In this document: positions 4,165-25,099 of the stretch, one piece after another
Layout: each line of letters starts with the position of its first letter
How positions within the stretch are numbered: position 1 is the stretch's first letter
NCBI GenBank assembly: GCA_943704525.1
Contig: CALSCQ010001992.1
Location: forward strand, 1 to 27,713
Direction: 5' to 3'
Source: Pigoraptor vietnamica
Taxonomy: Eukaryota > Opisthokonta > Filasterea
Length of the DNA: 27,713 nucleotides
Notes under the pieces: generated by a model
The model's input: the letters and a program-made list of their open reading frames with translations, nothing else
Told to the model about the DNA's origin: nothing
The model's database searches: none
Translations under genes and position numbers: made by a program

Positions 4165-4305
4165 GCCTCTAAATTGCAATTTAGAGGCCCAAATTGCAAT
4201 TTGAATACCACTGCCGAACAGCACGAAAAATGACAAATTGCAATTTCAGATAAATTGCAATTTAGAAGACTAAATTGCAATTTAGGGGCCCTTAATTGCG
4301 ATTAA
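4165..4305. repeat. Cluster of AAATTGCAATTT palindromes
   Basis: Five exact copies of the self-complementary 12-mer AAATTGCAATTT lie at 4171-4182, 4191-4202, 4235-4246, 4252-4263 and 4272-4283, plus a degenerate one at 4292-4305. The first is embedded in a perfect 24-bp palindrome (4165-4188, arms GCCTCTAAATTG). Spacing is irregular (about 20, 44, 17 and 20 bp start to start), so this is not a simple tandem repeat. It lies just outside the transposon and just downstream of the Tuba-like stop codon, so it is probably within or next to that gene's 3' UTR. Possible meanings are protein-binding sites, hairpins in the 3' UTR, or remains of a small inverted-repeat element. No function is assigned. 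Confidence 0.85.
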
Positions 4306-4358: not shown

Positions 4359-7300
4359 TCAGCAATTCGTTTCGCCCGCGACTTCCGTCGACGCCACACA
4401 CGGCTCGAGGTAGTTGCTGGGCACATATCCTTCCGTGCCGTCCGTCCTCTGCGCAAGCCACCAGTCCAGATTGCCCTCCTGATCGACCCTCTGCAGCACG
4501 TAGAGCGTCTCCCCGGCCGAGAAGCTTAGCTCGGTGGCGTCCTTTCCAACGTAGTCATACAGTGCGTAGAAATGCTCGCCGCGCGGCGGCTGCTGCGCCG
4601 GGGTATCCGCGGCCGCCGCGGGCGCAGCAGTGACAGCTGGCGCGACACTTGCAGCAGTCGTAGTGGTCGACACGGACGACGGCGTTGACACACGGGCAGG
4701 AGAGGACGTGGAGGAAGTCACACCCGCGCGCGAGGTCGGCGGTGTGTCGCGGTTCGGCGTGCCAGCGAGGTCCGCGTCGCTGTACTCGTCGGTGAATTCG
4801 TCCTCGTCAAAGCTGACAGTGCCGGGAATGGGGCCGCGGGCGATAATCGACTGGCGGCGCGACTCGTGGACGGATTCGAGCTTCACTGCAACCGAGGAGT
4901 AGCGCATAAGGAGCAACTCAGTTTGACAAATGCAGCCGCTCCCATGCAAAGTTCAGACTCATGCGTTCAAACGCACACGCACGCATGCGCTGCGCACTTA
5001 GCACCACACACACACACAGGACCACTCACGTCGGTACTTCTCGACGTCGCGTGCGAGACGGCTGATGCGACTGTCGCACGCCGAGAGCTTCCCCTTGAGC
5101 TCGGCGATCGCCTTGTCGTCGCCAAAGCCCGGCTGAGACTCGTACGTGCGGAGCAGGCCCTCCATGCCGTTCTTCGCACGGTGCTCGCTCTGCAGCGACG
5201 ACCACAAGGAGACAGCGCCCAAAGTCAGCTTTTTGTGAGGAAACGATGAAAAGCTTTTCCGCACGCCAAGTGCTACGAAGTGTGAAAATGCGTTGCACGA
5301 GTGCGCTTTGAGAGCCGCACCTGCAACTCCTTGCTGAGGTCGGCCAATTTGCGCTCGACATCCTCGATTGTCTGGACGCGGTCCTTCTCCCTGCGAGTCC
5401 GCTGCGCCTCCTCACTCGCCACGCTCACCGGCGTCGCGCCAATCGACGAACTGCAAACGGACACGCGGACGAAAAAGTTACAAGCCGGACTCCGGGTGCT
5501 GCCGACTCTGACGGGCTGCCCCATGCTCGCAGATAAACACGTCCCGTGTGTTGGCATTCCCAGTGTGCGAATCATCACATGAAGTGCATAAAGGGGACAG
5601 ACTAAATGGATGCATCTGTGCGCAGCGTGGCCCAAATCACTCACTTGAACGCCGCCTCAAACACGCGGTCAAAGTATTGCGGCATGATGGTGAGGCGCGT
5701 GAGCTTGCGCACGGCGTCCAGCTCGCGCTCGTAAAAGCGGTCCATTATGGGCACATTGCGCGCGACAAAGTCCGACTCCTGCGAAGAAGAAGAACGTCAG
5801 GAGGCACGGGTTAACAACCAGATTGTTGCTGTGTGTGTGTGCAGTGCACGTGCGTGTGCGTGTGCGTGTGCGTGTGCGTGTGCGTGTGCGTGCATGATGC
5901 GAATCAACTTACCACGAGCTGCGTGAGCTGCCCAACGGCGTCCCCGTAGTAAATCCCAATCGCCTTCAGGAAGTTCCGCAGGCAGTCTGCCACAAGCGAC
6001 TCGCCAAGCTTGACGAACCGCGGGAGGTCCTCCAACAGCTGCTCGTTCAGCGCGTTGTAGTCGTTCTGGGCGGCCGCGAGGGCATCCTGCGTGTGCGAGG
6101 CCATTCGTCAGCAAACAAGGACACAGTTAAAGATATGCGCGTGCTGGGATGTCAGGCGATCCCCATCCGTGTGCATGTGAGAAACTTTAACGCGCGACAG
6201 AGTTTGCAGAGTTCGAGTCGATCTATTCGAACGCAGGCCACCACACGCACATTCGAACAACGGGCCACCACACGCACCAGCTGCATCTTAGGGGCGTCCT
6301 TTGTGCCCTGGACCTTGTTCGCCCACTTGTCAAAGTCGAGGAGCTTGTCGTTGCGCTTGCGAATGAGATACGTCGGGTTGGGGAACTGGTCCAGCAGCGC
6401 GTAGAGGGGCCGGATGACACGTGACTTGACCATCGATAGCTGTGGGGTGGGCGCCAGCGTCAGACCGAAATGAAAAGAAGCAAGGACATCACAGGAGAGC
6501 CATCCCACATCGCTGACAACCCAACGACAGTGCAGAGGAGACATACAGAAGGGCCTCCAGCGACACGAAACAAAAGTAGGGCCAACTCCGAGAGACGACC
6601 CAAACACGGTCCATGCAACACGCAATCCGCGCACTCAAGCACTCACGTGATCGTTGAGGGCCTGTTGGGAGAGCAGGAGGTGCGCCATCTGGTACATGTT
6701 GATCTCCTGCCGCTGAAAGGCGTCGCCGTAAAACAGCTTGACGGCCTCTGCCAGCGACTGCTCCTTCGCACTCACATCGCCGATGCACGCAGAGTACGCC
6801 TCCGCGTCGTGGAGCACGGCCTGTAACGAGGGATGAGGATGAGCACCACACGCATGCCCACACTAACAGACGCACAGACGTACGGACTCAAATACACACA
6901 CTCGGTTCTTTACAAACGTGGACAACAAGATGCACCACACACCCGCGCAAGTCGCTCGAGCGCCCTGAAGCGCAGGTCGCACTCTTCGAAGAACGGGTCG
7001 ATGGTCCGCGACGCCTTTCCCGTGGCCTGGAGCGTGAGCTGCTTGATGCGGCCCGTCTTCTTCTTCAGCGAGTGGAGATTGATCTGCGCGGGGCGATTGT
7101 TCGACGGTGAGCGCACATGCATCAAGTATCGGAGAGAAGAAGAGCGAGCTACAAAGAACAACGATGGCCCGACAGTCCCTCTCCGCGAACTGACGGTATG
7201 GGGGATACAAAGAGCCGCACACACGACGCACGCACCTTGGCGACGTTTACGGCAAGGCCGTCGTCCACAGGCGCCGTGTACTTTTGCACAATGTCCTTGC

Positions 7301-10300
7301 GACGCTTGATCTCGTTGATGCTCGCGGCCACCGCGCGTATCTTCTCAAGGGCCTCCGTGAGCCACACGTAGTCGACGTGCGTCTCGAGCGTGCACTCGAG
7401 GAGCTGGTGAAGCAGCAGCGGGTACTTGAGCACGCGCTGCACGGGCTTGATGAGGAAGGACGAGAGGTCCCACGCGCCGCTCTGGCCGCGAATCGAGTCC
7501 TGAATAGAAAACGCAGAGTGAGCAAATGCGTGTGCATGCGTCGTGTACGTGCAAGACACTAAATGAGGAAAGGATCGCACACGTCCGAAGAGTGAAGTTC
7601 GACATTAACCGGGGGAGTAGGCACTGTTCAGAAGACAGGTTTTGGGCACACGGGCACTTCACACAAAGCGCACCTGGCGTTCCTTGAGGAGGGCGACCTT
7701 GGCAGGGTCGCTCTCCCACTTCTGGACCAAAGCCACCGCGTCGTCGTGGTTGCGACAGTACGCTGCGTACACGCGGCGTATGTCCTCGGCAGAGGCCAGG
7801 AAACAGGCGCCAATCTGGGAAGAAAGGAGGGAGGGAAGGGGCGCAAGTCAATGTCGCAGGAGACGGCAATTGAGAAAAAAAGGTAATAGAATACAAAGTA
7901 ACAAACAACGTCACAGACCAAACAGCCGCACACACACCTGCTGCTCCGGCGGCGGCTGCGCAATCGTGAGCTGCAGCGATTCCAACAACCGCTGCGACAC
8001 GCCGATGACCTCGTGGATGTTCCCAAACAGCACCGAGCACTCCTCCAGCGACACGCCGGCCTCCGCAAGCGGCGCCGCATACCCCTCGACGAGGAGAGAG
8101 AGGTCCCGCAGGAAGTCGGCCTCCGTCTTGACAATCTCGTCCACGACGCGCACGCGGTTCTCCGCCTTACGCAGCTTGCGTGCGAGCGCGGCTTGCTCGG
8201 GGTCGAGTGGCACCGCGGGCGCTTCCGCCGCAGGCAGCTGTTCGGCCGAAGTCGTCGCCGACGCCGCTGCAGAAACGGCCGTGGATGTAACGGCCGACGT
8301 GGCGTTGTTGGCAGGCTCGGGTGCGAGCGCGGCAGAGCGATTTGCGTCCGTCTAATAGTGAAGGGATGCAGACGCAGTTAGGATGGGCGGCGTGCAATAC
8401 GACACGCGAGAACAGTGGCATTAGCAGCAGCGCACAGGTGCCGCCGCCAGACAGATGCGCTCGCACAACCCACCGCTTCCTCATCGTCCCATTCCTTTTC
8501 TTCTCCGCGCGCGCTGTCAATGTCCTCATAGAGCGGTTCCTCCGCCGTCGCAGGGGGCTCCACCTTGGCCGGCTGCGGCGGTGCCACGGCCACCTGCGGA
8601 GTCGACGTGGGCCTTGGGGGAGGTCCGCTTGCGCTGGGCCGCCGCGCGGGCGTGGATGCGGGCTTGGGCGGAGGGCCAGCCGAGGGTGCTGACGAGGGGG
8701 CGGAAGCAGGAGCAGAAGGGGACGGCGCGGACATGCGAGCGGGCGTCGAAGGCACTGGCGGAGGTGCGCGCGATTGACCTGAAGCGTTTTGCGCCTCGCC
8801 AAGCGTGGGGAGCGACGGCTGCGAGCGCGAGTTCCCAATCACCATGGAAGAAACGCGGGGTCCCACGGCCGGTTTCGGCGGCGGCGTTCGTCCCGGCGCA
8901 GGATTGCTGTTGCCTGTTTGTATCTTCGCAATCGCCGCAGCCACGGAGGGGCCGTCGTCCGGCATGTCGGAAGGCGCAATGCCACCGCTCGACAAGCGGC
9001 GTCCACTTGGGGCGGGCGTGGTGGGCGCGCTCAACACGGCAGACATAGGGCGACCCACGGGGCCCACCGCCGGTTTGGGAGGGGGCTCCCTCTTCCCAGC
9101 CGCAGATGTCGACGAATCCGGGGTGGCATTGAGCGACCGCGATATCATTGGCTTGGACGCGGGCGGCGGCGGCTTCGACTTGGCCGCAAACGGCGCAGGC
9201 ACGGCGGGCGGCTCCCCGGTGGAAGGCGGTGGGCTCGGGCCGACGGTAGCAGGCGACGAGGAAGAAGACACGCCGTTGGGTCTCGACACTGATCCGACAG
9301 GCACGCTCTGCGGCTTTGGAGGAGGCGCACGTGGCTGGCCCTGCGGCACCGACTTAGGTGGCTCGGGACGCGAGGACGGCACGGCGGGCTTGCCGGTGAG
9401 AGAGGGCTGGCGCTGGAGTGTGGCTGCGGGGGCACTCTGCTGCGACGCGGAGATCGTTACGCTCCCGACGGACGTCATGGATCCCGTTGACATGAGCGAC
9501 GTCCGCGAAGGCGTCGACGCGAGCGGCGCTTGCGGCTGCGACTGTGGCACTGGCGGCTTCGCATCAGAAGTCCTACGGTACGGCGAGACGCTCGGTTTCG
9601 GCGGCGGAGCGCCTCCCGCCTCCGATATGGACGCACGGGGACTGTCCGTCCGAGGAAGTTCGGATATCGACGAACCCGAGATGGAGGCGCGCGCAGAATA
9701 GGGCGCGGGGACCTGAGGGGCCGCATTGCCGGGCGACGAGGACGGCCCGGACGACGTCTTACGAGGCGGCGTCTGCGCGAGCGCGCTCGCTCCCGCCGCA
9801 GGCGCCGACGCAGGCGCAGGTTGTTGGGCATAGGCCGGTGTGCGCGTGGGGGGTGGCGGCCGCCCGGGAGGTGGCGGACGTGGCGGAGGCACCTTCTGCG
9901 GGGTCCCCTTCGAAGGACTCGCGTCGAAAGACGACGACAGACCACCCGTTGCACCGCTGGGGGGCGGTGGGCGGGCGGGTGCCGAGGCGGTGTCCCTCCA
10001 CACGTCGAGAAAGCAGAGAGGCACGAGGCCCTGCTTCCCGTCGGCGCGTCGCACCTTGGCCCAGTCGGCGTCCACTCGCTCCACGAGGGCAACAACGTCG
10101 TTCGTCTCCACAGCCACTTCCCCGTCCACGGCGCCGTCGAACGACGCCGACACGCGCGCGCACGGCTTGTCAAACGCCACAAAGCTGCGCGGGAAGATGC
10201 CCTCCTCCACGCCGTTGCAGCCTCGCACCCAATTCGAATCCACTGACCCCGTCACGTATATCCGCTCGCCGGCCTCAAACGCAAGGTCTCCCGACGACTC

Positions 10301-11687
10301 GGCATGAAACGCCGTCATGCCGGTCGCAGTCACGGCGTGCTGCGGTGTTGCCGGCTCCGGCGCACGCGCGGGCGCGGCCGCGGGCGTGTACTTGGGCGGG
10401 TCATTCACCACACCCGCAATGGAAGCGCGCGCATCGTCCGAAAGGCGACGCGAAGAGCCCGAGCTGCTGCTGGCGATGTCCATCGGCTTTGGCGCGGACG
10501 AATGCGACGCTTTGTCGGCATCCGACCCACGCCGCTCCCACATTTTGGCCGCCGCGAGTACCGACGGGGCCCCCGAGGGCGTTTCGCTCGACGCGGCACT
10601 TGAAGCGGGTGCCGAAGCTGCGGCTGTCCCCAATGAGATGGCCGAAGCGGTGGATGACGTGGACGAGGGCTCGGGGAACGTGACGAAGATTGTCGGGAAT
10701 ATGCCCTTGCGTCCGTTGGCTTCGCCCTCGGACCAGTCGACGTCCAACTGCGGGACAGGAGAACCGCAAAGAGGCCTCAGTTGCATGCGCGAGTGCCAAG
10801 CGCATGTTATAGGCTCAAAATTCACAGGACACCCCACAGATATACCACCGGCCAACACACACGGCACACTACACACGCTGACGGTCCGCGACACACGCAC
10901 AGAAGAGAAGAGACTACCACACGCTCACAAATAACCACAGCGGACGGTAGGAAACACTTCGCACCTCGCGCAGAACCAATATCTTGTCGCCGGCCTTGAA
11001 GGGCAGGTCCGAATCTTCCGCCGCGTCGAAATCGCAGTTCGCAACCGCAATTCGCCCCTTTGCGACAGGTTCGGTCGCTTTGGGCGTTGGCTCCTCCTTC
11101 TTCGGCGTGGACGAAGGGGCGGCGTCCTTCTTTGCATCCGATGTCTTCGCGCCCGCGCTCTCTTTCGCCTTCGCCTTTTCCCGCTCCTTCTCCTTCTCCT
11201 TCTCAGCCTCCAGGAAGTCGTCCGTGATGTGGTCGGGCAGCGGCACGGTGACGTCCACGCACATCTTCGGAAAAATGCCCGTCTTGCCGCACAGCGTCCC
11301 GCGAAACCAGTTCTCGTCCACGTGGCTCACGAGCGCCACGACATCCCCCTTGAGCAGCGTCAACTCCTTGTCGTCCTCAGCAAAGAAATCGAGGTTTGCG
11401 ACGCCGGACGGCGCGGGGCCCGGACCGCCCGCCGGGGTACTCGACGCAGGCGCACTCGATGCGACCGTCGGCGCTTCCTCTTCCCCCTCGTATGGCGGCG
11501 GCGCGTCGTACGCGACCAGATTGGACGGGAAGATGCCCTCGTAACGGTCCTGCTTGCCCCGACACCAGTCGTCGTCGATGCGGTAAATGTCCGTGATAAC
11601 CTGGTCCTTGAAGAACACGAGGTCGCCGGCCGCCTCGCCCAGAAAGTCGAACAGCGCGCGGCCAGTCACACCCTTGCGAGGTCCCAT
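4359..11687 (-). CDS. Tuba/DNMBP-like Cdc42-type RhoGEF scaffold (SH3x5-DH-BAR-HR1-SH3)
   Basis: Thirteen exons: 11687-10965, 10747-8474, 8351-7938, 7814-7674, 7499-7236, 7083-6943, 6820-6647, 6439-6278, 6086-5913, 5778-5645, 5450-5321, 5189-5030, 4885-4359. They give 1805 aa, and all phases agree. An in-frame TAA 12 nt upstream fixes the start. Domains: SH3 at about 8-62, 95-149, 211-268 (split by intron 1), 379-434 and 437-492; Pro/Ser-rich linker 497-985 with PPPRPPPPGRPPPP-type stretches; DH about 1050-1270 with TEADFLRDL and the hallmark FLIKPVQRVLKYPLLLHQL, so exchange activity is likely; BAR about 1330-1535 (YLIRKRNDKLLDFD); HR1-like coil about 1554-1632; acidic/Ser-Thr linker; final SH3 1735-1793 (ALYDY, WW, VPSNYLEP). 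Human Tuba has SH3x4-DH-BAR-SH3x2. Family role: a membrane-curving scaffold that activates Cdc42 and links endocytosis to actin. It shares a promoter with CYFIP. Confidence 0.9.
5831..5893. repeat. (GT)n and (GTGTGC)n microsatellite in Tuba-like intron 9
   Basis: A short GT run is followed by about seven GTGTGC hexamers, ending 17 bp from the 5' splice site of exon 9 (the intron spans 5779-5912). In the transcript it reads as a CA/CACGCA-rich tract. Alternating purine-pyrimidine sequence of this kind can adopt Z-form. No coding role. Confidence 0.9.
6225..6277 (-). repeat. 26/27-bp tandem duplication abutting the exon 8 splice donor
   Basis: Copies 6225-6250 and 6251-6277 share ATTCGAAC and GGCCACCACACGCAC. 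The copy next to the exon contains the real 5' splice site (GTGCGTGTGG at 6277 reading leftward). The second copy therefore presents an identical GTGCGTGTGG donor-like sequence 27 nt into the intron. Use of that site would insert nine codons' worth of sequence. Confidence 0.85.
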
Positions 11688-12077
11688 CTTCGCTGTTTAA
11701 GGCGGGGGCGGACGAAACAAATCGCCTTCAACCCCCTTCGCGGCGCGCGCGCCGCCCGTGCACTCACGTCGCCATAACACGCGAAGTGCAGCCAACAAAC
11801 AGAGATGGGGACGACTCGGGCCGACGCAGCGGCCGAGGAGGAGGAATGCGAACCGGAGGGAAAATGGATGGGGATGCAACCCACAAAACCAATTACTCGC
11901 ACTTGGGGTTACGCGTGTCAGTGAGTGTACATGAAAGCGTGCATGCGTGTGAGTACTCCCGTGCGCGTGCAAACGAATGCGCTGTGTGCGACGAGAAAGC
12001 GCTTCCACTGTCTCGCCCAAACGCACCGTCATCCTTCAGTTCAAGAGCGCGGCCACACAAAACCGGCTTTCCACAAT

Positions 12078-12093
12078 CACGTGATATCACGTG
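12078..12093. promoter_or_regulatory. Palindromic double E-box, copy 1
   Basis: CACGTGATATCACGTG is a perfect 16-bp palindrome made of two CACGTG boxes 10 bp apart centre to centre, about one helical turn. CACGTG is the core site of bHLH and bHLH-zip factors (Myc/Max, USF, MITF/TFE, Cbf1). The factor used in this organism is unknown. Confidence 0.7.
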
Positions 12094-12140
12094 CACTGAT
12101 ACCTTCGTAACGCACGCAGAGAGTGAGGGTTATGGTCTGG

Positions 12141-12160
12141 TCACGTGATATATCACGTGA
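12141..12160. promoter_or_regulatory. Palindromic double E-box, copy 2
   Basis: TCACGTGATATATCACGTGA is a perfect 20-bp palindrome holding two CACGTG boxes 12 bp apart centre to centre. It lies 64 bp from copy 1 and differs from it by two extra bases in the AT spacer. It sits about 280 bp upstream of the CYFIP start codon. Confidence 0.7.
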
Positions 12161-12441
12161 GGTGTGTTGTTGATGCTTTTTTCGTGTTTTGCCTCGCACG
12201 GTGCACGCAGGCGATTCTCCTCTTTCGCATCTACGGCTTACAACCGTCAGCGCACGCGTTCGTGCGCATCGGTTCGCAGCAGTGTTTTTGTTTTCTTCTT
12301 TCGTACTTTTTTTTTTTGGATTGCTTTCAAAGAAGGCGCGCTTCTGTGGGCGCACCTTTGGGCTGTTTTGCGCAGCCCGCGCGTGCGGCGGTTCTCTTTC
12401 CTCGCATTGCGGCGTGACGCGCGCACGCACACGCGGCGAAA

Positions 12442-20539
<8,098 letters not shown>

Positions 20540-25077: not shown

Positions 25078-25099
25078 CACGTGATCCGTCGCGCACGTG
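25078..25099. promoter_or_regulatory. Paired CACGTG boxes
   Basis: Two E-boxes 16 bp apart centre to centre, arranged as an inverted pair at their outer flanks (GGTCACGTG ... CACGTGACC). They sit near the middle of the VPS33/ABCB10-like promoter. They echo the two pairs in the Tuba/CYFIP promoter, but here the spacer is GC-rich rather than ATAT. Confidence 0.65.

Follow-up and report, generated by a model that had tools for sequence, protein, structure and literature searches.

The C-terminal SH3 domain of mammalian Tuba (DNMBP) was reportedly found, in a paper of 2003, to bind N-WASP, WAVE1, NAP1 and PIR121; NAP1 is a direct partner of CYFIP. According to the accessible text of PMC4021885, Tuba consists of four N-terminal SH3 domains, a DH domain, a BAR domain and two C-terminal SH3 domains, with HR1 absent from that description, and N-WASP and Ena/VASP are named as partners of the C-terminal SH3 domains. 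The accessible portion of PMC6399408 holds no Tuba domain content. In TOCA1, a loop of the HR1 domain lies within the G-protein-binding surface, and the mutant in which MGD is replaced by IST is deficient in Cdc42 binding (PMC4919469, in the part available).

The 27,713 nucleotides of Pigoraptor vietnamica DNA analysed here (contig CALSCQ010001992.1), hereafter the window, contain a Tuba-like gene and a CYFIP gene in head-to-head orientation. Their features are collected in Table 1.

The Tuba-like protein, CYFIP and their arrangement

The Tuba-like protein is composed of five SH3 domains, a proline-rich stretch, RhoGEF, BAR and HR1_TOCA domains and a last SH3 domain, in this order (Pfam). It has in common with mammalian Tuba the N-terminal SH3 array, a DH domain followed by BAR without an intervening PH domain, and a C-terminal SH3 domain; a Pfam scan of the spliced protein gave no PH family after the RhoGEF domain. 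Compared with the Tuba of the accessible PMC4021885 text, it contains five rather than four N-terminal SH3 domains, one rather than two C-terminal SH3 domains, and a TOCA-type HR1 domain between BAR and the last SH3 domain. Because a single C-terminal SH3 domain was found and not two, the protein is named Tuba-like and not Tuba.

A preliminary description of this DNA had identified the two genes as a Tuba-like exchange factor ending in an SH3 domain and CYFIP, and both identities are supported by Pfam and by alignments to PDB structures. The C-terminal SH3 domain is present in exon 13. Structures of dynamin-binding protein (4cc2, 4cc3, 4cc4 and 4cc7) are among its best PDB matches, 4cc2_A being the second-best row (Table 1) and the SH3 domain of c-Src (4rtw_A, E 2.6e-12) equally good. 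In the alignment the domain shares a GN-x-(D/E)-WWLA stretch with 4cc2_A, which favours, without proving, a putative descent from a Tuba SH3 domain. The CYFIP protein carries FragX_IP (1046 bits) and the CYRIA/CYRIB Rac1-binding family CYRIA-B_Rac1-bd (44.1 bits) and aligns with human CYFIP1 (3p8c_A) over residues 2-1232. It resembles CYFIP1/PIR121 of the WAVE regulatory complex over nearly its full length and is an ordinary member with no unusual feature. Both genes are single in the genome by these searches: no match beyond the window covers the BAR region of the Tuba-like gene, and all 12 FragX_IP matches lie on the contig of the window.

Table 1 Features of the Tuba-like/CYFIP locus (window positions)
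Feature	Position	Strand	Description	Evidence
Tuba-like gene	4359..11687	-	13 exons, 1805 aa	spliced model, Pfam
Tuba-like exons 1-2	8474..11687	-	five SH3 and proline-rich stretch	Pfam SH3_1, five stretches, 175.2 bits
Tuba-like exons 3-5	7236..8351	-	RhoGEF (DH)	Pfam RhoGEF 142.5 bits; PDB matches to Rho GEFs
Tuba-like exons 6-10	5645..7083	-	BAR	Pfam BAR (PF03114) 110.6 bits; amphiphysin structures
Tuba-like exons 11-12	5030..5450	-	TOCA-type HR1	Pfam HR1_TOCA 47.7 bits; TOCA1/CIP4 structures
Tuba-like exon 13	4359..4885	-	last SH3	resembles Tuba SH3 structure 4cc2_A, E 3.3e-12
Gap between start codons	11688..12441		754 bp, candidate bidirectional promoter	
Double E-box 1, TCACGTGATATCACGTG	12077..12093		E-boxes spaced by 10 bp; centre at 21 bp from the ATG-to-ATG midpoint	
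Double E-box 2, TCACGTGATATATCACGTGA	12141..12160		perfect palindrome; E-boxes 12 bp apart	
CYFIP (PIR121/Sra1) gene	12442..20539	+	27 exons, 1247 aa	spliced model, Pfam, PDB 3p8c_A

Exons were joined manually at GT-AG sites, apart from a single GC-AG intron in CYFIP, and in both spliced models the frames join and no internal stops occur. The models place the ATG of the Tuba-like gene at 11687-11685 (-) and that of CYFIP at 12442-12444 (+), so that the distance between diverging start codons given earlier, 754 bp, is exact. It is an ATG-to-ATG spacing between start codons inferred from sequence, and lies below the 1 kb between divergent starts that marks a bidirectional promoter. Head-to-head placement is not rare: elsewhere in the window a Sec1-family gene (-) also diverges from an ABC-transporter-like gene (+), the latter called from two pieces at 19 bits, under the cut-off of 28. 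The gap of this second pair contains two CACGTG sites 16 bp apart (25078-25099). In addition, a THAP domain with HTH_Tnp_4 and DDE_Tnp_4 transposase frames marks a THAP-type transposon gene, whether intact or decayed (242-2141, +), and the palindrome AAATTGCAATTT is repeated five times directly 3' of the Tuba-like gene (4171-4283). In the literature searched, none of the papers among the matches listed mentioned 'head-to-head' or 'bidirectional promoter'.

Double E-boxes in the gap and across the genome

The gap holds two double E-boxes, both palindromic (CACGTGATATCACGTG and CACGTGATATATCACGTG), located 283-364 bp from the ATG of CYFIP and 391-472 bp from that of the Tuba-like gene. Single CACGTG sites are only mildly enriched in the window, which has 29 of them; 100 shuffles averaged 18.8, and two reached 29. 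Across the genome it is the paired site that is conspicuous. The 16-mer CACGTGATATCACGTG has 23 exact copies in the 32.5-Mb genome, with none for the reversed control and 0.014 expected under a first-order Markov model of eight arbitrarily chosen loci. The looser pattern CACGTGATAT-N(0-2)-CACGTG gave 27 forward matches, 23 of them the exact 16-mer, and no control match. CACGTG-N4-CACGTG (hereafter the N4 pair) occurs 233 times against 11 for its reversed control and about 31 expected from the density of single E-boxes in the eight loci. Pairs of TCACGTGA within 30 bp number 95 against one in the control, and 12 of 50 among the matches listed are spaced by exactly 10 bp. For the most part the 150-bp flanks to the left and right of the 27 copies are unrelated, with two weak matches, one of them between the window and locus L003; an origin of the double E-box from a dispersed repeat was rejected on this ground. 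No pair lies inside a called coding segment at any of 39 loci (27 of the 16-mer class and 12 with the N4 pair); of single CACGTG sites in the eight arbitrarily chosen loci, 21 of 47 are coding. The 48 kb of those eight loci contain no N4 pair, a result of little weight as the genome rate predicts about 0.3.

The 27 loci of the 16-mer class, the window included, were classed by codon-usage segments. Seventeen proved divergent, three tandem and none was shown to be convergent, while seven had no call on at least one side. Outside the window, 20 places with the 16-mer or a close variant could be judged, and 16 of them are divergent (binomial p 0.006 under a theoretical null of one half; one '+/?' place counted as non-divergent). 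A sample of the first 12 non-ATAT sites, among about 50 listed of the 233 N4 pairs, comprised six divergent, two tandem and four without a full call, which corresponds to 6 of 11 divergent when three '+/?' places are counted as non-divergent (p 0.5). The two samples combined yield 22 of 31 (p 0.015). The independent N4 sample and the counting of '+/?' places as non-divergent weaken the idea of a strong bidirectional-promoter mark, and the link of the element to divergent promoters is modest.

Forty of at least 64 flanking segments were scanned, and 25 contained a Pfam family at E 0.01 or better. These families include Hsp70, BRO1, argininosuccinate synthase, thiolase, PALP, aconitase, GST_C, an EF-Tu-type GTPase, TmcA_N, cyclin, DM10, CFAP65, Armc9, FCH (F-BAR), reprolysin and kinase; a myosin head was also seen, below its cut-off. 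Only the FCH piece and the sub-cut-off myosin-head piece are plainly linked to actin. In the sample examined the element thus looks generic, a general promoter element and not an actin-specific one. The ciliary-type families DM10, CFAP65 and Armc9 (loci L029, L033 and L027) adjoin the element, and their presence suggests that the organism may have a flagellum.

A CACGTG-binding factor family is probably encoded in the genome, in which the HLH profile has 26 matches. One bHLH gene, on contig C378 (L023 5882-6531, +), has its bHLH region after an N-terminal MSIASVLLEAAELLE stretch, which we take to resemble the Sin3-interaction domain of Mad/Mnt. This gene is divergent from an exchange factor bearing an HR1 domain (see below).

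The likeliest reading of the gap is a shared promoter. We put at about even odds the view that the gap is one of the compact bidirectional promoters common in this genome, and that chance gene order, more probably than an ancient Cdc42-Rac pair, made partners of the Tuba-like gene and CYFIP. Dimeric CACGTG-binding bHLH factors would occupy the two palindromic double E-boxes, whose E-boxes are spaced in one case by 10 bp, close to a turn of the helix, and in the other by 12 bp. A palindromic element has no direction and could activate the Tuba-like gene to its left as well as CYFIP to its right, and the two genes would then likely be co-expressed. Alternatively, and somewhat unlikely in our estimate, two separate back-to-back promoters came to lie close together by chance, with the double E-boxes serving one gene and no regulation in common. 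Room is ample, 754 bp being enough for two promoters; the unrelated Sec1-family and ABC-transporter-like genes are likewise head-to-head, and the independent N4 sample is just 6 of 11 divergent. Against separate promoters speak the palindromic form and duplication of the elements, the position of the first near the midpoint of the gap, and the tendency of the 16-mer class towards divergent gaps (16 of 20). The shared promoter proposed earlier is supported in so far as a symmetric cis-element in the gap could serve both genes; this element looks generic and is found genome-wide. A phased double E-box of this kind represents a concrete promoter grammar for a unicellular eukaryote.

Partner genes and the WAVE complex

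The preliminary description regarded the Tuba-like gene and CYFIP as an old or selected pair of a Cdc42 exchange factor and a Rac effector, retained together so that the Cdc42 and Rac branches are co-expressed. In its favour, both genes encode actin regulators and are single-copy by these searches, the last SH3 domain resembles that of Tuba, and NAP1 also has an N4 element upstream. Pieces of NAP1 were found by genome search on contigs C1338 and C589. CACGTG occurs upstream at L040 positions 1614, 1624 and 1638 (1614-1643), 10 and 14 bp apart, and the N4 element lies 312-342 bp before an ATG chosen by eye at L040 1956. Against it, ABI (27.0 bits, at its cut-off) is located on contig C564, a SCAR-like exon on C1305 (108248-108433, -), and both, like NAP1, are on contigs other than that of CYFIP; a cluster of WAVE genes is thereby ruled out. 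The stretch upstream of ABI (L039 785-1851) contains no CACGTG. In human, DNMBP, CYFIP1 and CYFIP2 each lie on a separate chromosome, which likewise counts against a selected pair. Of the 25 family-bearing segments among the 40 flanks scanned, actin-linked genes are as scarce as reported above. A 242-aa piece of CYFIP was compared with prokaryote and viral contigs in search of close relatives and had no match, and no relative bearing the pair was found in that set.

The proposal of an old or selected actin pair is therefore not borne out: the element is genome-wide and in the sample stands before unrelated genes, and ABI is without it. We regard such a selected pair as unlikely, and the case for selection on Cdc42-Rac coupling as its cause is thin, coming from one genome and a generic element. 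Accident is the more probable origin of the partner choice, because the genome holds 233 such element pairs and the sampled ones lie beside unrelated genes. Taken by itself, the linkage of the two genes carries little weight unless relatives prove to share it.

The double E-box is present in two of three WAVE-complex promoters examined (CYFIP and NAP1, not ABI), a suggestive count noticed after the motif had been chosen. It could denote a small growth/actin regulon with CYFIP and NAP1, in which the Tuba-like gene is included by position. The element does stand at similar distances before CYFIP and NAP1 (283-364 and 312-342 bp). Nevertheless, the post hoc count, the ABI negative, the lack of an N4 pair at the HR1 loci L022-L026 and the mixed genes flanking other copies make such a regulon very improbable, and a WAVE-specific regulon is ruled out by the mixed flanking genes and the ABI negative. 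A generic shared promoter with an accidental partner is the reading we favour.

TOCA-type HR1 domains in exchange factors and comparison with described systems

The exchange factor bearing an HR1 domain is a more interesting part of the locus than the gene pair. HR1_TOCA, at about residues 1540-1640, scored 43.9 bits in the whole Tuba-like protein and more when scanned alone (Table 1; cut-off 27), and the best structure matches were FNBP1L (TOCA1, E 0.0012) and CIP4 (E 0.0036). The loop SQPGFGDD aligns to KNPQMGDP of TOCA1. Tyr377, Pro381, Gly384 and Asp385 of the TOCA1 loop are identical in the Tuba-like protein and Met383 is replaced by Phe (residue numbers from PMC4919469 where stated there, otherwise counted here). 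Compared with the MGD motif in the accessible text of that paper, Gly-Asp is kept and the motif reads FGD. As the HR1 domain is of the type that binds Cdc42-GTP in TOCA1, its presence suggests that the exchange factor may read its own product.

With TOCA1, CIP4 and FBP17 (F-BAR-HR1-SH3) the Tuba-like protein shares HR1_TOCA followed by SH3; in contrast to them it has BAR (PF03114) instead of F-BAR, together with DH and the SH3 array. Because BAR replaces F-BAR, it is not a TOCA protein. The HR1_TOCA profile has seven matches in this genome, four of them over cut-off. A gene on contig C571 combines HR1 and SH3 (Pfam scan) after helices that appear F-BAR-like by eye. A second exchange factor, on contig C378, reads SH3-HR1-SH3-DH-PH, its SH3 domains recognised by eye. 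Its HR1_TOCA (L023 4363-4548, -) scored 30.2 bits, over cut-off, and is 45% identical to that of the Tuba-like protein; the start of its RhoGEF domain (17.1 bits) and its PH-type matches (22.1 and 20.5 bits) all lie under their Pfam cut-offs. Two distinct Rho exchange factors of this genome thus carry an HR1 domain of TOCA type.

These features can be joined in a single reading, which as a whole we consider quite doubtful. The Tuba-like protein would be a Cdc42 exchange factor with a built-in reader of its product. Where BAR bends the membrane, its HR1 domain would bind Cdc42-GTP, keep the DH domain at that site and amplify Cdc42 in the vicinity; the last SH3 domain would recruit WASP/WAVE factors. 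A palindromic double E-box, which in its N4 form precedes NAP1 too, would drive the joint transcription of the gene and CYFIP, and the C378 factor would be a parallel fusion of HR1 and an exchange factor. Yeast polarity uses a feedback of exchange factor, scaffold and effector; should the HR1 domain bind Cdc42-GTP, source and sensor of Cdc42 activity would be united in one protein, as a single-chain form of that feedback.

The promoter element likewise has known counterparts. In animal clock and CLEAR promoters, tandem CACGTG-type sites are read by bHLH dimers; the clustered sites of the present element are alike, and their spacing and flanks differ. The holozoan ribosome-biogenesis regulon of CG-core E-boxes (Myc), as given in the accessible part of PMC2570694, is similar in its CACGTG promoter elements and in the occurrence here of a bHLH gene that we would call Mad/Mnt-like. 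The extended consensus stated there for Drosophila is MAACACGTGYG, which none of the four E-boxes in the double E-boxes of the gap fits, each following T. The two head-to-head genes are actin regulators, not ribosome-biogenesis genes; among the sampled flanks, which are mixed in content, one TmcA_N piece may belong to a gene of ribosome biogenesis. Unlike that of the Myc regulon in the same accessible text, the element here is paired, with a peak at 10-bp spacing and mixed gene content.
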